A stretch of 64,000 nucleotides of DNA from Desulfoplanes formicivorans (GTDB lineage Bacteria; Desulfobacterota; Desulfovibrionia; Desulfovibrionales; Desulfomicrobiaceae): assembly GCF_001748225.1 (NCBI RefSeq), contig NZ_BDFE01000017.1, positions 372,001 to 436,000 of the forward strand, in the 5' to 3' direction. A program made the translations under genes and the position numbers. The notes below the pieces were generated by a model. It saw only the letters and a list, made by a program, of their open reading frames with translations. It searched no databases and was not told where the DNA came from. Shown in pieces: positions 13,741 through 22,553 of the stretch; the first letter of the stretch is position 1, and each line of letters begins with the position of its first letter.

Positions 13741-13776
13741 AAGCCGGGTTTCCTGCACAGGGGAAACCCGGCTTTT
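13741..13776 (+). terminator. Intrinsic terminator of greA
   Basis: AAGCCGGGTTTCC (13741-13753) pairs perfectly with 13762-13774 across an 8-base loop and runs into a short T-tract. It lies 25 bases after the greA stop codon. Confidence 0.85.
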
Positions 13777-14004
13777 CGTGATCTGGCGAATGCCGTACTT
13801 CGGTGAAGCAGAAGGGATATCCCGGAATGGATGGCACAGGCCAAAAGGACCGTAATGTTACGAGCACTGTTCCTGCCCAAAACCCTTTGACAACCTGTTC
13901 CCGACAGGGGCAATCTCAATTGTTAGCGGTTCGGTTTTCCGATAGATACCAGCCTCAAACCTCAATCCGCCTGCACCATGCAGGCATATCCGGGAGCGGC
14001 AACC

Positions 14005-14994
14005 ATGCCCCATGTTCTGTGGACCGGGCAACAACTCTGTTACGATGCCTCGGGCAGACCCATTGATTGCCAGGGATCGGGACAGGACGCGGCAACAAGG
14101 GGAAGCCACACGTTCTCAAACCGTTTCATGCCTGAAGGAAACGGGCTTGTACGTGATCAGGCAACCGGGCTCATATGGACGCAAACAGCCAATTTCGGCC
14201 AGTTCCCCATGACCTGGCAGGATGCGCTGAACCTGGTCCGAACCATGAACAGGGACGGGTACGCCCATCACCGGGACTGGCGACTTCCCAACCGCAGGGA
14301 ATTGCGCAGCCTCATCAGCTACGGGAACAAAAACCCTGCCCTGCCCGCATCCCATCCCTTTGAAGAAGTCTTTTTGGGGTGGTACTGGTCCTCGACCACA
14401 GCAGCCATTGCCCCGGACCATGCCTGGTATGTCCATCTTGAAGGGGGGCGCATGTTCTACGGCAAAAAGGACCAGTTCGCCCTCACATGGCCTGTTTGCG
14501 GACAATCCATCAACCTGCCAAAAACCGGACAAACCCTGTGTCATGACAGCGCCGGTCGGAACATCCCCTGTACTGATTCGGGTCAGGATGGCGCGCTCCG
14601 GCAGGGATTGCCCTGGCCACATCCCCGTTTCACGCTCCAGGGGGACGTTGTTCACGACAACCTGACCGGGCTGGTCTGGCTTCGGAATGCCCGGGCGTTC
14701 CCGAAAACCATGACCTGGGAACAGGCCCTTGCAAGCGTGGCAGGCCTCACCACGGCGGGTCGATCCTGGCGGTTGCCAACCATCAACGAGCTGGAATCCC
14801 TGGTGGATGCCTCCACCTTCAGCCCGGCTTTGCCGGCCCATCATCCCTTCCTGTCGGTGCAGCAGGCCTACTGGTCGTCAACATCCAGCTTTTTTGAACC
14901 CGACTGGGCCCATGTCCTGTATCTGCACAAGGGTGCCGTGGGCGTGGGCTGGAAACCCAAACCCGAATTTCACGTCTGGCCCGTGAGCTGCTGA
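14005..14994 (+). CDS. Two-repeat DUF1566 (Lcl C-terminal fold) protein
   Basis: The protein (329 residues) contains two copies of the DUF1566 module, about residues 40-165 and 195-328. Each has the hallmarks LVRD/VHDN-x-TGLIW/VW, MTW..AL, WRLP..ELRSL/ELESLV, and the YWSST motif. The module has a C-type-lectin-like fold and is usually found on exported proteins. I chose ATG 14005 because GGGAG precedes it; an ATG at 13978 lacks a ribosome site. Neither start gives a signal peptide, and an in-frame stop lies just upstream, which is unusual for the family. Function unknown. Confidence 0.75.
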   Translation: MPHVLWTGQQLCYDASGRPIDCQGSGQDAATRGSHTFSNRFMPEGNGLVRDQATGLIWTQTANFGQFPMTWQDALNLVRTMNRDGYAHHRDWRLPNRRELRSLISYGNKNPALPASHPFEEVFLGWYWSSTTAAIAPDHAWYVHLEGGRMFYGKKDQFALTWPVCGQSINLPKTGQTLCHDSAGRNIPCTDSGQDGALRQGLPWPHPRFTLQGDVVHDNLTGLVWLRNARAFPKTMTWEQALASVAGLTTAGRSWRLPTINELESLVDASTFSPALPAHHPFLSVQQAYWSSTSSFFEPDWAHVLYLHKGAVGVGWKPKPEFHVWPVSC

Positions 14995-15090
14995 ATAACA
15001 GGGTCAATGTGCCGGATTCCCGCGTCTGCACGCCCCAGCACCATGCTGACAAACGGACAGAATCCGTTGGAGGCAACATCGTCTCTGTCC

Positions 15091-15119
15091 TTGACAGGGA
15101 GGAACGGATCACCTAGACA
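15091..15119 (+). promoter_or_regulatory. Probable trp operon promoter
   Basis: A perfect -35 TTGACA (15091-15096) is followed after 17 bases by TAGACA (15114-15119), a weaker -10. Transcription would start near 15126, about 40 bases before the first leader-peptide ATG. No clear TrpR operator is visible to me. Confidence 0.55.
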
Positions 15120-15164
15120 TTGATCCTACACATTTGAACATCGTTTTCACAGGATACTGTTATC

Positions 15165-15260
15165 ATGATCGCGCAAGTTTTCCAGACTACCCATTGTACA
15201 GCTTCCAACCTCTGGTGGTGGCACGGTTTGTCATATGGAATCCTGCGCATGCAGCGATAG
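15165..15260 (+). CDS. trpL: trp leader peptide 1 (three consecutive Trp codons)
   Basis: A 31-codon reading frame, ATG 15165 to TAG 15258-15260, preceded by AGGA at 15151-15154. Codons 17-19 are TGG-TGG-TGG (15213-15221). This is the signature of ribosome-mediated attenuation: stalling at scarce tRNA-Trp changes RNA folding downstream. GTGGC at the Trp codons can pair with GCCAC at 15286-15290, and CTGTGG at 15267-15272 can pair with CCGCAG in the terminator's left arm (15304-15309), which gives plausible alternative structures. It was not listed as a gene by length criteria and rests on codon content and context. Confidence 0.72.
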   Translation: MIAQVFQTTHCTASNLWWWHGLSYGILRMQR

Positions 15261-15297
15261 TGTTCGCTGTGGATCTCAATCAGACGCCACGCATACC

Positions 15298-15335
15298 AAG
15301 GGGCCGCAGGAGATAATCCTGCGGCCCCTTTTTTT
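15298..15335 (+). terminator. trp attenuator 1 (intrinsic terminator)
   Basis: A 14-bp stem (left arm AAGGGGCCGCAGGA, 15298-15311; right arm 15317-15330), a 5-base loop and seven T residues. It lies 37 bases after the stop of leader peptide 1, the standard attenuator arrangement. Confidence 0.85.
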
Positions 15336-15385
15336 ATAACCTCAACCCCTTGCCAACCATGACCTTCTCCCCCTTTGCCACAACC

Positions 15386-15505
15386 ATGTGCTCCACCCAA
15401 CACACGCTCTCTTCCTGCGGACGGGAACAGGCAGATGTTGTCCTGACTGCATGGCTGTGGTGGTGGCTTTTTTCCCGTGTCAGGGGAGATCCTGCTGCAT
15501 GGTGA
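15386..15505 (+). CDS. Candidate trp leader peptide 2 (Trp-Leu-Trp-Trp-Trp)
   Basis: A second Trp-rich frame, ATG 15386 to TGA 15503-15505 (39 codons). Trp codons occur at 23 and 25-27, within TGGCTGTGGTGGTGG (15452-15466), and again as the last codon. It is the only in-frame start and lacks an obvious ribosome site, so translation is less certain than for leader 1. TGGTGGTG (15458-15465) can pair with CACCACCA (15517-15524). The order TGG-TGG-TGG-C, a spacer, then ATCCTGC is shared with leader 1, suggesting a duplicated control unit. Confidence 0.5.
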   Translation: MCSTQHTLSSCGREQADVVLTAWLWWWLFSRVRGDPAAW

Positions 15506-15530
15506 CGCATCTTGCACACCACCATCATGT

Positions 15531-15572
15531 AAGCCGCCGGATTTTCCCCGTGAAAATCCGGCGGCTTTTTTT
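15531..15572 (+). terminator. trp attenuator 2 (intrinsic terminator)
   Basis: A perfect 16-bp stem, AAGCCGCCGGATTTTC at 15531-15546 with its complement at 15552-15567, then seven T residues. It is 84 bases before trpE and 25 bases after the second Trp-rich frame. Confidence 0.88.
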
Positions 15573-15656
15573 GCAAACCAGTCAAACCCCGACAAAATCA
15601 ACTCACACTGTTCAACGCCTTTAACGGCAAACCAATTGGAATCTTACGGAGAAACA

Positions 15657-17069
15657 ATGATCAATCTGGAACAACACGGTCAATGGATGCAGGCGGATAC
15701 CCAGACTCCGGTTTCCCTGTATCTCAGTCTGGTGGGGACCAAACCGGGTATTCTTCTGGAAAGTACCGAGGTGGACGGCCGCCTGGGGCGGTACAGTCTC
15801 ATGGGTTGGGACTTTCAGCTCCTGCTTGAATGCTTCAACGGCAACCTGAAGGTGACGGTCCTGGACGACCGGCTCGCTCCCCTGCAAACATTTCACGACA
15901 CCCCGTTTCTCAAGGGTATCAAAGAGCTGACACGGGAACTGAACATCATTCCTCCTGCGGAACTGAGTGAACTTCCCCCCATGACCAGATCCATCTGCGG
16001 CTATTTTGGCTACACCATGGGCGGCATCTTTGAACCGGCCCTGGCCGACCGGCTTCCACCCGAGCAGGGAGAGGCGTATTACGCCCTGCCCGGCAAGATT
16101 CTCCTCTTTGATCATCTCCATTCCAGATGCTGCTATCTGAGCATTACCAACGATCCGAATCCCGGACCTCTCTCTGCCGCGCCGGTTGAAGAAGAACCTT
16201 TGTGCGGCAGGATCACAGCCACCCCGGACAGATCAACCTTCATGGATGCCGTGACCAGGGCCAAGAAACTAATTACCCATGGCGAGGCCATTCAGATCGT
16301 GCTCTCGTCCAAACGACAATGTTCTTTTACCGGATCATCCTTTACCCTGTATCGCCGACTCCGACAGATCAACCCCTCGCCCTACACCTTTTACATCCAT
16401 TTCCCTGAAATCACCCTCATTGGATCGTCTCCCGAACTGCTGGTCAAAAGCACGGACAACCACCTGCTGCTCCGCCCCATTGCCGGCACCCGTCCCAGGG
16501 GAGCTAGCGATGAAGAGGACAAGCAACTGGCCGCAGAGATGATCGAAGACCCCAAAGAGCGGGCCGAACACGTCATGCTCGTGGATCTGGGCCGCAACGA
16601 TCTGGGCCGCATGGCCACCACCGGCAGCGTCAAGGTGACCCGGTTCATGGATGTGGAACGGTTTTCCCACGTCATGCACCTCACCTCCACCATCACCGCC
16701 GACCTCTTGCCGGGCCGGGACGCATTGGACGTCCTGACAGCCACCTTTCCGGCAGGAACCGTGAGCGGAGCCCCCAAGATCCGGGCCATGCAGATCATCG
16801 CAGACATGGAACTCCTGGAACGGGGACCCTATGCCGGGTCCATCGGCTGGATCGGGGTGGGTCAGGGACCGGTCAACCTGGACATGGGGCTGACCATCAG
16901 AACCATGTGGATCAGGGACGGGGTCCTCACCTGGCAGACCGGAGCGGGCATTGTGTTTGATTCCGAACCGGTCAGGGAATGGGAAGAATGTCAAAACAAA
17001 GCAGGGGCCCTGTTTGCGGCCATACAAACCAGTGGAGGCGGTGATGATTTTACTCGTGGACAACTTTGA
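15657..17069 (+). CDS. trpE: Anthranilate synthase component I
   Basis: Converts chorismate and ammonia to anthranilate, the first committed step of tryptophan synthesis (470 residues). The feedback-inhibition motif LLES is present at GILLESTEVDG. The chorismate-binding C-terminal half has IAGTRPRG, DLGRNDLGR and the segment TFPAGTVSGAPKIRAM. The ATG at 15657 is preceded by GGAG. An earlier in-frame opening runs back through the attenuator and is not the start. It overlaps trpG by 26 bases. Confidence 0.96.
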   Translation: MINLEQHGQWMQADTQTPVSLYLSLVGTKPGILLESTEVDGRLGRYSLMGWDFQLLLECFNGNLKVTVLDDRLAPLQTFHDTPFLKGIKELTRELNIIPPAELSELPPMTRSICGYFGYTMGGIFEPALADRLPPEQGEAYYALPGKILLFDHLHSRCCYLSITNDPNPGPLSAAPVEEEPLCGRITATPDRSTFMDAVTRAKKLITHGEAIQIVLSSKRQCSFTGSSFTLYRRLRQINPSPYTFYIHFPEITLIGSSPELLVKSTDNHLLLRPIAGTRPRGASDEEDKQLAAEMIEDPKERAEHVMLVDLGRNDLGRMATTGSVKVTRFMDVERFSHVMHLTSTITADLLPGRDALDVLTATFPAGTVSGAPKIRAMQIIADMELLERGPYAGSIGWIGVGQGPVNLDMGLTIRTMWIRDGVLTWQTGAGIVFDSEPVREWEECQNKAGALFAAIQTSGGGDDFTRGQL

Positions 17070-17646
17070 TTCCTTTACCTTCAATCTGGTGCAGACCTTC
17101 CAGACCCAGGGATGCAATCCCCTGGTGCACAGGAACAACGAACCCGAAATCCTGGATCTGGCCACAAGCCCGGATCTGCAAGGGGTCGTCCTGTCACCCG
17201 GTCCCAGCCATCCAGTCAATGCCGGACTGTGCCTGGAGCTGCTTACCAGGCTGCCCCGTCACATCCCCGTACTTGGCGTATGCCTGGGTCACCAGATCCT
17301 GGGATATTTTGCCGGAGCCCACGTGTCCAGGGCCAACCGCATCATGCACGGCAAGACATCCACCATTGAACATACCAATACAGGCCTCTTTGCCGGCCTG
17401 CCCCAACCCATGGTCATTGGCCGCTATCATTCACTGATCGTCTTCCCGGGCACCACCAGGCTGTCCTTCACGGTCACGGCCGCTACCCAGGACGGCTCCA
17501 TCATGGGCCTTGCCTATACGAACAGACCATGGATGGGCGTTCAGTTTCATCCCGAATCCGTGCTTACCCCTGACGGCCCCCGGCTGCTGAACAATTTCAT
17601 CAGGATCTGCCAGGATCAGGCAGACGGTACAAAAAATGTGGCCTGA
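17044..17646 (+). CDS. trpG: Anthranilate synthase component II (glutamine amidotransferase)
   Basis: Supplies ammonia from glutamine to TrpE (200 residues). The class I amidotransferase triad is visible: Cys in GVCLGHQ, and His/Glu in FHPES near the C-terminus. The N-terminus MILLVDNFDSFTFNL is typical. It is not fused to trpD, unlike in enterics. A GTG three bases upstream is an alternative start. Confidence 0.96.
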   Translation: MILLVDNFDSFTFNLVQTFQTQGCNPLVHRNNEPEILDLATSPDLQGVVLSPGPSHPVNAGLCLELLTRLPRHIPVLGVCLGHQILGYFAGAHVSRANRIMHGKTSTIEHTNTGLFAGLPQPMVIGRYHSLIVFPGTTRLSFTVTAATQDGSIMGLAYTNRPWMGVQFHPESVLTPDGPRLLNNFIRICQDQADGTKNVA

Positions 17647-17753: not shown

Positions 17754-18755
17754 ATGGCTACCACCATACATACCATTCTTGACCATCTGAAAAACGGCAA
17801 CGATCTCACGCCCCAAATGGGCAGACAGGCCTTTGGCGCCCTGCTCAGGGGAGAATTGGAACCGGCCCAGGCAGGCGCCCTGCTCCTTGGCCTGAGCATG
17901 AAGGGGGAAACCGCCGAAGAACTGGGCGAGGCCGTGAATATGGCTCTTGAGCAAGCCAGAATCATTCCGGATCTCACGGAAAAACGCATCGACACCTGCG
18001 GCACGGGCGGGGACGGCAAGAACAGTTTCAACTGCTCCACCGCAGTATCCCTGTTCCTGGCCGACATGGGCTACAAGGTGGTCAAACACGGCAACAAGGG
18101 TGTTTCCAGCAAATGCGGAAGTGCGGATATCGTCAAGGCCCTGGGCTTTCCTTTTGTGAGTTCTCCGGAAGAGGCACATGCGGAACTGGCCAAACGCAAT
18201 TTCGTATTCCTGTTCGCTCCCCAGTTCCACCCGGCTTTCAGGTACGTGGCTCCCATCCGTCAGGCATTGGGCATACGCACCCTGTTCAATCTGGTGGGCC
18301 CCCTCATCAATCCGGCCCTGCCCACCCACCAGCTCATGGGAGTTCCCTCGCCGGATTTTGCCCCCCTCATGGCCACGGTCCTGGCCAAGCGGGGCATCAA
18401 AGCGGCTGTTGTCCACGGTGCCGGGGGATTCGATGAGCTCACTCCCTGCGGGATCTGCCAGGTGATCATGGTTGCCAACGGCAAGACAACCACCTCTTCA
18501 TTCGACCCCATGCCCCTGGGCTTTGAACGGTGCGCACCCGAAGATCTGCAGTGCAGCGGACCGGAGGACGCCCTGGAAAAGCAGAAACTCATTCTGGCGG
18601 GAACCGGGCCCAAAGCCATGCAGGACATGGTTGCCCTGAATCTGGGTATGGCCATCCACATTCTGGAAGAAGGCGTATCCATGGCCGAGGCCATGCATCA
18701 GGCCCGGACCAAGGTGCATGAAGGAGTCACGGAGGTGCTTTCCCATGCCTCTTAG
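17754..18755 (+). CDS. trpD: Anthranilate phosphoribosyltransferase
   Basis: Transfers phosphoribose from PRPP to anthranilate (333 residues). PRPP/anthranilate motifs are CGTGGDGKNSFNCST and KHGNKGVSSKCGSAD, followed by the second-metal region further on. AGGAG precedes the start. It overlaps the start of trpC by 11 bases. Confidence 0.96.
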   Translation: MATTIHTILDHLKNGNDLTPQMGRQAFGALLRGELEPAQAGALLLGLSMKGETAEELGEAVNMALEQARIIPDLTEKRIDTCGTGGDGKNSFNCSTAVSLFLADMGYKVVKHGNKGVSSKCGSADIVKALGFPFVSSPEEAHAELAKRNFVFLFAPQFHPAFRYVAPIRQALGIRTLFNLVGPLINPALPTHQLMGVPSPDFAPLMATVLAKRGIKAAVVHGAGGFDELTPCGICQVIMVANGKTTTSSFDPMPLGFERCAPEDLQCSGPEDALEKQKLILAGTGPKAMQDMVALNLGMAIHILEEGVSMAEAMHQARTKVHEGVTEVLSHAS

Positions 18756-19512
18756 CCGTTTTGTCAAGGCCAAGGAAGAGGAACTGACAAGGCTTCGGAG
18801 CCTGAAACAATTGCCCGCTCCCTACCGGGGAAAACGTCCCGGGTTTGCCGAGGCCATCCGGGGACAGATGCCGGGAGCCATCATTGCCGAGTACAAGAGG
18901 GCTTCCCCTTCCAAAGGAGACATCAACCTGACCATGTCTCCGGAGGAGGTGGGATCCATGTATGCCCGGGCAGGAGCATCGGCCATTTCCGTGCTCACGG
19001 AAGAAACCTACTTCAAGGGCGACCTCTCCTATCTGCACATCATGGCAAAGACCGGCCTGCCCCTGCTGCGCAAGGATTTCATCACCCATCCCCTGCAGGT
19101 GGCCATGACCGCTTCCACCCCGGCATCGGCCATTCTGGTCATTGTCCGGCTCTTTGAAACCGACGCGGAACTGAACGCAGTCCTGCGGGAATGCCAGACT
19201 TTCGGCCTGGAACCCGTGGTGGAGGCATTTGACGCCCACGATCTTCAAAGGGCTCAGTCTCTTGGCGCCAGGATCATCCAGATCAACAACCGGGATCTGG
19301 CCACCCTGGGTATCGATCTGAACCGATCCTACGAACTCGTTACAAGAAAACAAAAACACGAGACCTGGATCAGCGCCAGTGGCATCACCACCCCGCAAGC
19401 CGGACAAAAAATGTTCGAGGCGGGATTCGACGCGTTACTCATGGGCACGGCCCTGATGGCGTCGGATCATCCCGGCAGGATGGTCGAGAGATTCACTCGA
19501 AATGGATCATAG
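18745..19512 (+). CDS. trpC: Indole-3-glycerol phosphate synthase
   Basis: Closes the indole ring from CdRP (255 residues, TIM barrel). Catalytic signatures are IIAEYKRASPSKGDI (Lys and Glu), LLRKDFI, and IQINNRDLATL. The start at 18745 has GGAGG 9 bases upstream, within trpD. It is a separate gene and not fused to trpF. Confidence 0.96.
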   Translation: MPLSRFVKAKEEELTRLRSLKQLPAPYRGKRPGFAEAIRGQMPGAIIAEYKRASPSKGDINLTMSPEEVGSMYARAGASAISVLTEETYFKGDLSYLHIMAKTGLPLLRKDFITHPLQVAMTASTPASAILVIVRLFETDAELNAVLRECQTFGLEPVVEAFDAHDLQRAQSLGARIIQINNRDLATLGIDLNRSYELVTRKQKHETWISASGITTPQAGQKMFEAGFDALLMGTALMASDHPGRMVERFTRNGS

Positions 19513-19704: not shown

Positions 19705-20370
19705 ATGAAGATATCCGAACACAACACATCACCCCTGTTTTCCCGCAAACCCGTGGTCAAGGTCTGCGGCATGACCAGAAGCCAGGACATCCGGACCTGT
19801 ATCAACCTGGGCGTGAACCTTTTGGGATTCATCTTCCACCCCAAAAGCCCGCGAAATACCAACCCCCAGGACGTGCCCGACCTTTCCGGATCACCGGTGC
19901 GCAAGGTGGGCGTGTTCGTGAACCAGGGAGCAGAGGAGATCGCCCGGATCATGGACACGGCAAAGCTTGATCTGGCCCAGCTCCATGGGGATCATACTGT
20001 CGAGGCCTGCCGGACATTGGGTGCATCGCGGGTCATCAAGGTCTTCTGGCCCATGCGCTATGAACAGATGGACGATCTGTGCCGGGATATGGACCGATTC
20101 GCCCCGGTATGCACGGCCTTTCTCCTGGATGCGGGCATACAATCCGGAGGTCACGGGACCAGTCTGGATTTCACGACTCTCCAGGGCATGGCTCCCCCCC
20201 GGCCCTGGATCCTGGCAGGGGGCCTTGGCCCGGCCAACATCACCCATGCCCTGCAATGTGAACCCGATGGCGTGGACCTGAACTCCGGAGTGGAATCCGC
20301 CCCCGGCATCAAGGATGCAGAGGCAATAAAACAGGTCATGCGCATCATCCGACCCGACGCCAACCCGTAG
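19705..20370 (+). CDS. trpF: Phosphoribosylanthranilate isomerase
   Basis: Isomerises phosphoribosylanthranilate to CdRP (221 residues, TIM barrel). VKVCGMTR carries the catalytic Cys, and the catalytic Asp is in FLLDAGIQSGGHGTSLD. The phosphate loop ILAGGLGPANI is intact. It is separated from trpC by a 192-base spacer holding a REP-like element. Confidence 0.95.
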   Translation: MKISEHNTSPLFSRKPVVKVCGMTRSQDIRTCINLGVNLLGFIFHPKSPRNTNPQDVPDLSGSPVRKVGVFVNQGAEEIARIMDTAKLDLAQLHGDHTVEACRTLGASRVIKVFWPMRYEQMDDLCRDMDRFAPVCTAFLLDAGIQSGGHGTSLDFTTLQGMAPPRPWILAGGLGPANITHALQCEPDGVDLNSGVESAPGIKDAEAIKQVMRIIRPDANP

Positions 20371-20395
20371 GGGCACGGTGCGCCGTGCCCTTTTT
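20365..20395 (+). terminator. Repeat copy 2, acting as an intrinsic terminator inside trp operon
   Basis: Second copy of the CCCGTAGGGGCACGG repeat. The stem GGGCACGG / CCGTGCCC (20371-20378 / 20383-20390) with loop TGCG is followed by five T residues. It directly follows the trpF stop, 160 bases before trpB, so it may reduce trpBA relative to upstream genes unless an internal promoter compensates. Confidence 0.6.
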
Positions 20396-20554
20396 CCGCT
20401 CATCAAAACCAAGAGGACATGCCGCAAAAAGGGCGAGCACAGGAACCCGCCCTTACAAACGATCATATTTTCAGAGATCCCGGATCACGCCCGGATGACG
20501 CTTTTTCCGGTCTCCGGTTTCCTTTTATCCCATATCTTGAATCAAGGATTTCCC

Positions 20555-21793
20555 ATGACTACCAAAGCCATTGAACAACGCTTCGGCCCCTACGGCGGCC
20601 GGTATGTGCCCGAAATGCTCATCCCGGCCCTGGATGAACTCACCGAAGCCTATGCAGGACTTCGGAATGACCCCGGATTCCAGCAGGAACTCTCGGACCT
20701 GTTCACCACCTATTCGGGACGCCCCACCCCGCTCACCTATGCGGCCAACCTGACCAGACGTCTGGGCGGCTGCAAGATCTATCTGAAAATGGAGGGGCTC
20801 AACCACACCGGGGCCCACAAGATCACCAACGCCCTGGGCCAGGGACTGGTGGCCCGGAAAATGGGCAAAACCCGACTCATTGCCGAGACCGGTGCGGGCC
20901 AGCACGGGGTTGCCACGGCCACGGTGGCCGCCAAACTGGGCATGGCGTGTACCGTGTTCATGGGCCAAGTGGACATCCAGCGTCAGTACCCCAATGTCTA
21001 TGCCATGCGCCTTCTGGGAGCCGAGGTGGTTCCCGTGACCTTTGGCACCAGAACCCTCAAGGACGCGGTCAACGCGGCCCTGAAACACTGGATCGAACAC
21101 CTGGATGACACCCATTATCTCATCGGCTCGGCCCTGGGACCGGCACCCTATCCGGCCATGGTCCGGGATTTCCAGTCGGTTATCGGCCGCGAGGTGAAAA
21201 CCCAGATCATGGAGGCCGAAGGCCGACTGCCCGATTCCCTGGTGGCCTGCGTGGGCGGAGGCTCCAATTCCATCGGTCTGTTTGCCCCGTTTGTTGACGA
21301 ACCTTCGGTCCGATGCTTTGGCACCGAGGCAGGCGGCACCGGGCCAAAGCCCGGAGAAAACGCGGCTCGGTTCGGCGAAAATCCTCAAATAGGCATTGTC
21401 CAGGGCTACAAGAGTTACTTCCTGCAGAATGACGACGGCCAGGTTCAGGAGACCCATTCCATCAGCGCGGGTCTTGATTACGCAGGCATAGGCCCGGAAC
21501 TGGCCCAACTGCACGATGAAGGACGCATTCATTTTTCCAGTGTTCTGGACTCGGAGGTGCTTGAGGCCTTCAAAATCCTGTGCAGGGAGGAAGGAATCAT
21601 CCCGGCCCTGGAATCAGCCCATGCCGTTGCCCGGGCCATGCAGCTTGCTCCCGGACTACCCAAGGATCACATCATGGTCATCAATATCTCGGGCCGGGGC
21701 GACAAGGACATCTTTATCACGGCCAAGCATCTGGATGAAACCCGATGGGTCGAATTTCTCAAATCGGAGGTACAGGACATTGAAAACCATTGA
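20555..21793 (+). CDS. trpB: Tryptophan synthase beta chain
   Basis: Condenses indole with serine using PLP (412 residues). Lys89 in HTGAHK forms the Schiff base, GAGQHGVATATVA is the substrate site, and GGGSNSIGLF binds the PLP phosphate. The N-terminus RFGPYGGRYVPEMLIPAL is typical of TrpB1. The start at 20555 gives a normal length. Confidence 0.96.
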   Translation: MTTKAIEQRFGPYGGRYVPEMLIPALDELTEAYAGLRNDPGFQQELSDLFTTYSGRPTPLTYAANLTRRLGGCKIYLKMEGLNHTGAHKITNALGQGLVARKMGKTRLIAETGAGQHGVATATVAAKLGMACTVFMGQVDIQRQYPNVYAMRLLGAEVVPVTFGTRTLKDAVNAALKHWIEHLDDTHYLIGSALGPAPYPAMVRDFQSVIGREVKTQIMEAEGRLPDSLVACVGGGSNSIGLFAPFVDEPSVRCFGTEAGGTGPKPGENAARFGENPQIGIVQGYKSYFLQNDDGQVQETHSISAGLDYAGIGPELAQLHDEGRIHFSSVLDSEVLEAFKILCREEGIIPALESAHAVARAMQLAPGLPKDHIMVINISGRGDKDIFITAKHLDETRWVEFLKSEVQDIENH

Positions 21794-22553
21794 TCAGGTC
21801 TTTGCGACCAACAAAAAAATCGGGCTCATGACCCATGTGGTGGCCGGGTACCCCGATCTTGCGGCAACAGCCGACCTCATCCGGCTCATGGCGGACTCGG
21901 GCGTGGACCTGGTTGAAATCCAGATCCCCTTTTCCGATCCCCTGGCCGACGGCCCCACCATCATGCGCGCCAGCCAGCACGCCCTGGACAACGGTATCAC
22001 CACCAACGACTGCTTCAGGCTGGCCGAGGACATGGCAAACAAGGTGGATATTCCCCTCTTGTTCATGACCTACGGCAACATTCCCTTTGCCATGGGCATG
22101 GAACGGTTCATGCGCCGCAGCGCCGGTGCAGGCATTCAGGGACTGATCATCCCGGATCTCCCCTTTGACGAGGAGACCGACGATCATCTGACTCTGGCCC
22201 ACAAGGCAGGCCTCAAGGTCATCCAGGTGACCTCGCCGTCAACAAACAAAAAGCGTCTGGAAAAGGTATGCTCCATTGCGGAAGGGTTCATCTATTCCAC
22301 CCTCAAGGTGGGCATCACCGGTGCGGGCACGGATATCGACGACCAGGGCATCGCCTTTCTGAACCGGATACGCTCCCTGACCGACCTGCCCATAGCCGCT
22401 GGATTCGGCATCAGCTCCCCGGAACACGTGGAAAAACTCATGGGCAAAACCGACATGGCCGTGATCGGCAGCCATGTGATCAATCTGTATGAAAAAAAGG
22501 GCCCACAAGGCGTGGCCCGATTTCTGGAACAATGCCGACACGTGGGAAGCTAA
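21780..22553 (+). CDS. trpA: Tryptophan synthase alpha chain
   Basis: Cleaves indole-3-glycerol phosphate to indole (257 residues). The catalytic Glu46 lies in DLVEIQIPFSDPLADGP; the second acid is in IIPDLPFDEE. I place the start at TTG 21780, with GGAGG 8 bases upstream. It overlaps trpB by 14 bases and starts right at the conserved N-terminal helix. No ATG is available until after the first conserved strand. Confidence 0.92.
   Translation: MKTIDQVFATNKKIGLMTHVVAGYPDLAATADLIRLMADSGVDLVEIQIPFSDPLADGPTIMRASQHALDNGITTNDCFRLAEDMANKVDIPLLFMTYGNIPFAMGMERFMRRSAGAGIQGLIIPDLPFDEETDDHLTLAHKAGLKVIQVTSPSTNKKRLEKVCSIAEGFIYSTLKVGITGAGTDIDDQGIAFLNRIRSLTDLPIAAGFGISSPEHVEKLMGKTDMAVIGSHVINLYEKKGPQGVARFLEQCRHVGS

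Follow-up and report, generated by a model that had tools for sequence, protein, structure and literature searches.

We asked whether the trp operon of Desulfoplanes formicivorans is controlled by two attenuators acting one after the other. A first-pass annotation of the window (the whole stretch of 64,000 nucleotides analysed here) had noticed two leader frames with Trp runs, each with its own terminator, in front of trpE and had read them as two Trp attenuators in series before one trp operon. When both strands of the window were scanned for three adjacent Trp codons (WWW) lying 30-150 nt 5' of a terminator, exactly two units were found, both of them the trp leaders, and the same scan found none on the plus strand of ten block-shuffled windows. 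The anatomy of the region, its conservation in the genus mate, the model-based kinship of the units and the split of an ancestral gene cluster, all read from sequence, support this interpretation: it is probable that two ribosome-mediated attenuators lie in series on one trp transcript and that they derive from the head unit and the tyrA-tail unit of an ancestral supraoperon. The leader region is flanked by an Lcl_C-domain gene on its 5' side and by trpE on its 3' side, and is organised as follows (window coordinates).

15091..15119, + strand: putative promoter, TTGACA (15091-15096), N17, TAGACA (15114-15119), called by eye from conservation in the genus mate
15165..15260, + strand: leader peptide 1, 31 aa, with WWW and an AGGA ribosome site 5' of it (Shine-Dalgarno energy -4.1 kcal/mol)
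15213..15221, + strand: the three Trp codons of leader 1
15241..15247, + strand: predicted antiterminator arm 1 (TCCTGCG), partner 15305-15311, from the fold with the ribosome stalled at Trp
15298..15330, + strand: intrinsic terminator 1, head type (GGGGCCGCAGGAG...), 14 pairs and a T-run; head model match 15204-15337
15331..15419, + strand: unstructured spacer, rich in C and poor in G (9%), with the start region of leader 2
15359..15505, + strand: leader frame 2, ATG at 15359 or 15386, with WLWWW and no Shine-Dalgarno sequence
15458..15466, + strand: three Trp codons of leader 2, with an extra TGG at 15452-15454
15483..15492, + strand: predicted antiterminator arm 2 (GGGGAGATCC), partner 15539-15548, from the fold (shuffle P 0.002)
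15531..15567, + strand: intrinsic terminator 2, tyrA-tail type, 16 pairs and a T-run; tail model match 15445-15570
15657..17069, + strand: trpE (anthranilate synthase I; Pfam PF04715, PF00425), with a GGAG ribosome site
17044..17646, + strand: trpG (glutamine amidotransferase; PF00117)
17754..18755, + strand: trpD (PF00591, PF02885)
18718..19512, + strand: trpC (PF00218)
19705..20370, + strand: trpF (PF00697)
20378..21793, + strand: reading frame containing trpB (PF00291), true start probably more internal
21516..22553, + strand: reading frame containing trpA (PF00290), true start probably more internal

Leader 1 runs from its ATG at 15165 to a stop codon at 15258-15260 and encodes MIAQVFQTTHCTASNLWWWHGLSYGILRMQR. 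Its three adjacent Trp codons and the intrinsic terminator 37 bases further on are where the first-pass annotation had placed them, and the Trp codons, the ribosome site and an equivalent terminator are also present in the genus mate. Leader 2 ends at the stop codon at 15503-15505 and reads TGG-CTG-TGG-TGG-TGG; here too the earlier description (a Trp-Leu-Trp-Trp-Trp frame with a terminator 25 bases on) was correct, and terminator 2 likewise has an equivalent in the genus mate. The annotation had also pointed to an ATCCTGC shared by the two leaders after TGGTGGTGGC. The motif is indeed present in both, but the likeness is partly coincidental, as the leader 1 copy overlaps the predicted antiterminator arm whereas the leader 2 arm is a different segment. 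No member of an Rfam attenuator family was found at E<=1 in window positions 14000-17000, nor of an Rfam leader family at E<=0.1 in four loci of relatives (L041, L091, L099 and L123).

A simple consensus promoter scan returned 0 sites, because its -10 rule requires a final T. The putative promoter of the window has the same spacing as a TTGACA-N17-TAGACG sequence in the genus mate and resembles the promoter of a head attenuator in a relative (G002, locus L129; CCTAGACA); the call thus depends on conservation judged by eye. An inverted repeat, GGATCA-N9-TGATCC (15106-15126), overlaps the putative -10 and is not obvious in the genus mate.

The family was represented by 22 genomes, 2 of them in the genus, and the genus mate (G001, trpE locus L041) is a separate, fragmented assembly. 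This only other genus genome compared has kept both units and the putative promoter (TTGACA-N17-TAGAC), in the order leader ...SIPSLWWWRGVSYSLL, head-like terminator, leader ...VRLLWWWPEFFFRGEPAVM, terminator and trpE. The blocks conserved by BLASTN between the two species were the stretches from WWW to segment 2, the two terminators and trpE, with no conservation in the spacers. The second Trp run, whose loss would have counted against the tandem reading, is kept together with its terminator, and it is found by a model built from single trp attenuators of relatives. Five of the 10 pairs of the leader 2 antiterminator, as read off the folds, differ between the two species with the pairing preserved.

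Folding with and without a stalled ribosome, which the first-pass annotation had proposed, was carried out for eight units: leaders 1 and 2 of the window, of the genus mate and of a member of another genus (G018), and the head and tail units of locus L091. When the RNA beyond a ribosome positioned at the Trp or aromatic run was folded, the 2:3 antiterminator formed in 8/8 units, and the same units lost most of the 2:3 pairing when the ribosome was placed at the stop codon. The terminator was thermodynamically favoured in every state of the full-length RNA, so the decision must fall during transcription. Against shuffled sequences, the antiterminator pairing of leader 2 exceeded chance in both species (P 0.002 in the window, 0.0045 in the genus mate). 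Leader 1 gave P 0.20 in the window, where the best duplex with the terminator arm differs from the duplex in the fold, and P 0.022 in the genus mate; the G018 leaders gave 0.071 (marginal) and 0.031, and P was <=0.05 in 60 of 68 units of the other loci.

These folds are compatible with the following scheme. Under a shortage of charged tRNA-Trp, a ribosome would stall on the Trp run of leader 1 and segment 2 would pair with terminator 1 at its 5' arm, letting RNA polymerase go on; leader 2 would have to repeat the same relief before the polymerase reaches trpE. With plentiful Trp, the ribosome would reach the stop codon and cover segment 2, allowing the terminator to form. If both units respond to Trp in this way, read-through would be roughly the product of two probabilities, which may lower the basal level of expression and extend the range.

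Is leader 2 translated? It has no Shine-Dalgarno sequence in either species (+2.2 kcal/mol at both candidate ATGs of the window, +1.2 in the genus mate), and a search for alternative starts led by such a sequence found none, so that we infer its translation; the missing ribosome site, named in the first-pass annotation as a possible objection, thus counts in part against the tandem reading. The open frame is weak evidence, because a second frame is nearly open too in this C-rich stretch. trpF and the Lcl_C gene of the window also have no clear Shine-Dalgarno sequence at their assumed starts. The lack of one before leader 2, together with the N-terminal half of this leader, which was not conserved in the two-species comparison, would suit a reading in which leader 1 is the sole working Trp sensor and leader 2 a decaying, poorly translated relic of a tyrA tail, with terminator 2 as a fixed partial brake. 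We regard this as unlikely: WWW, segment 2 and terminator 2 of leader 2 are conserved, the pairing survives base changes, and of the two antiterminators its own has the better statistical support. Moreover, a never-relieved terminator of 16 pairs with a T-run in front of a biosynthetic operon should be lost.

The composition of the region around the leader 2 start raises another alternative. Only 0.03% of window positions show as large an excess of C over G as the 80 nt from 15331, and the folding energy of the 50 nt around ATG 15359 is 0.0 kcal/mol, so that few stretches of the window are less structured or more biased towards C over G; this would fit initiation without a Shine-Dalgarno sequence or, possibly, a rut-like loading site for Rho. 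If 15331-15419 were such a site, an extra Rho-dependent gate, shielded by translation of leader 2, would be added to the tandem attenuators rather than replace them. Rho control has been suggested for the Salmonella mgtCBR leader in the portion of PMC3641672 drawn on here. Still, the same composition would serve a start region that lacks a Shine-Dalgarno sequence, and the spacer of the genus mate has a more moderate bias (34% C, 13% G), which makes a Rho gate doubtful.

As for the separate promoter that the first-pass annotation had considered, none is evident between the units, by scan or by eye on the two-species alignment, and the two units are predicted to be co-transcribed. That an internal promoter feeds leader 2 and trpE while leader 1 sits in a separate short RNA, a leader-terminator RNA of the rnTrpL type such as leader 1 alone would give, is very improbable, since the gap between terminator 1 and ATG 15359 is only 28 nt, no promoter-like site was found there by the scan, and the alignment contains no conserved hexamers between the units.

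Where, then, do the two units of the tandem attenuator come from? Relatives in the order have a single long aro-phe-tyr-trp cluster with an attenuator at its head and a second one just 5' of trpE. The head leader peptide is aromatic (e.g. SLYFFWYFYF), and in most relatives examined the Trp run of the second attenuator is the C-terminal end of the tyrA frame (e.g. ...LSQKALWWWRKQHDAGGPAS), followed by one terminator and trpE; the tyrA protein of these relatives carries a prephenate dehydrogenase domain. A predicted head attenuator had been listed earlier for the aroA'-aroB'-pheA-aroF-tyrA-[trp] supraoperon of D. vulgaris (PMC1173090, in the part of the text consulted). We sampled trpE upstream regions from 50 of 56 other genomes matched in one search and from 40 of 265 in another, the latter hand-picked across genera. 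Under a strict rule, 68/91 regions had one unit (57 with a long frame, 11 with a short one), 3/91 had two and 20/91 had none; the one unit called in L136 probably arose by chance, and at least one locus counted as having no terminator (L058) does have one, its T-tract having been missed by the rule.

Heads lie ∼5 kb further 5', at the start of the aro-phe-tyr genes. In 20 of 21 heads the leader was rich in aromatic residues, with 5 to 8 of them in a stretch of 8, the remaining one having 4, and the terminator core GGGCCGC(A/G)GGC was present in all 21. A conserved head motif, CCTGTGGTC, is complementary to the 5' arm of the terminator, as judged by eye on the alignment. TTGAC begins 35-40 nt 5' of the leader ATG in 16 of 17 heads (L091, L096-L098, L100-L104, L107-L109, L123 and L126-L129), and the head leader mRNA may therefore be nearly leaderless. 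A palindrome, TGACC-N3-GGTCA, lies just 5' of the -35 in five of these 17 (L091, L096, L097, L098 and L128) and is a candidate operator.

At the other attenuator, WWW in the tyrA tail went together with a terminator: it was present in 45/47 loci with a terminator before trpE vs 9/18 without (Fisher P 6e-5, phylogeny ignored; tyrA tail recognised in 66/91 loci, tandem loci, one of the 66, excluded). The window genome fits a broken cluster, with pheA and tyrA on one contig (C15) and the trp operon on another (C17). The aro-phe-tyr cluster on C15 has its own head attenuator (MNTPNQTLFSNAYFFFWYYFVLTCGLDGKV), while its tyrA ends in KALHWWQ (KALSWWK in the genus mate) and the regulatory tail is absent. 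Two genomes without a detected trpE have tyrA ends reading KARLWWQETRG.... The third Trp of TyrA is thus missing in both genus genomes, where trp is no longer next to tyrA, as well as in the two trpE-less genomes examined, and is retained in G018. These sequences suggest that the WWW tail of tyrA has its role in regulation and not in the enzyme.

Two models were built with the window, L041 and L057 excluded, one from 49 tyrA-tail units (7 of 56 units dropped before alignment as near copies) and one from 20 heads (1 of 21 dropped before alignment). The tail model matched leader 2 (E 4.9e-8 in the window, 1e-7 in L041, 2e-16 in G018) and the head model matched leader 1 (E 2.5e-5, 4.6e-6 and 2.9e-19, respectively), all E-values being rough. 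The tail model also had a weak match to leader 1 of L041 (E 7e-4), and the kinship of leader 1 is therefore not exclusive. We had considered leader 2 as a duplicate of leader 1; separate origins are favoured by the model scores, though with that weak match. The tail model further matched, on both strands, a bidirectional terminator-like hairpin between two genes at 13741-13784 of the window.

In G018, which belongs to another genus, the region 5' of trpE comprises a copy of the head unit (SLYFFWCFY), a degenerate remnant of tyrA containing WWW, and the two terminators; an intact tyrA with the WWW tail lies elsewhere in the genome. By its sequence, G018 would represent the same junction at an earlier, intermediate stage. 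The tandem arrangement thus probably arose twice. Leader 1 and leader 2 thus appear to descend from the head attenuator and the tyrA-tail attenuator, respectively, juxtaposed as the ancestral supraoperon broke up, an origin beyond the reach of the first-pass annotation. Leader 1 would have been retuned from Phe/Tyr/Trp to Trp, with trp parted from the aro-phe-tyr genes. The tail-type unit of one genus (g12) is now a stand-alone leader with a Shine-Dalgarno sequence, unlike leader 2. Locus L133 (G123) has a single short WW leader and a head-like terminator directly 5' of trpE (768-937), which may be a head unit that came to read Trp with no tail unit beside it.

Tandem T-boxes also place two elements with terminators in series, and their RNA senses tRNA directly with no leader peptide. 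Likewise, the tandem riboswitches of B. clausii metE (cited in the part of PMC3641672 used here) consist of one control element with a terminator behind another, but their RNA senses the ligand directly, whereas the window units have leader peptides. The closest described system is the Salmonella mgtCBR leader, in which two short ORFs, mgtM and mgtP, each lie in their own attenuator, one of them reading a charged tRNA (Pro); according to the same excerpts, it senses two signals, ATP and Pro, through stem-loops unlike intrinsic terminators, while the two window units, each with its intrinsic terminator, are both predicted to read Trp. G018, with its aromatic first unit, would be nearer to this two-signal logic. 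The classical trp attenuator (E. coli; Corynebacterium and Streptomyces, excerpts of PMC1262725) shares the short Trp-run leader, the 2:3 and 3:4 alternatives and the terminator before the first trp gene, and is one unit rather than two in series. The D. vulgaris supraoperon has the same gene cluster and presumably the same head attenuator as the relatives here; in the part of PMC1173090 drawn on, one attenuator is mentioned, at the head, a tyrA-tail attenuator is not described, and the terms 'leader peptide' and 'WWW' do not occur. The first-pass annotation knew of no described case of tandem trp leader peptides, and searches of the open-licence PMC literature, outside which most subscription papers lie, likewise returned neither a series of two Trp-run leaders nor a tyrA-tail attenuator.

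Taken across the order, it is likely that in most sampled genera the C-terminal WWW tail of TyrA doubles as a Trp-sensing leader for the trp genes, inside a transcript gated by an aromatic-sensing head attenuator, and that a break of the cluster fuses the two gates into a tandem leader. Dynamic range vs sharpness of response has been modelled for single attenuators (PMC1183508, in the part seen), and tandem attenuation by one amino acid would offer a natural way to ask whether gating in series makes the dynamic range wider or the response sharper. In its origin, two changes could also be traced: the tail of a structural gene becoming a leader peptide, and an attenuator switching the amino acids that it reads.
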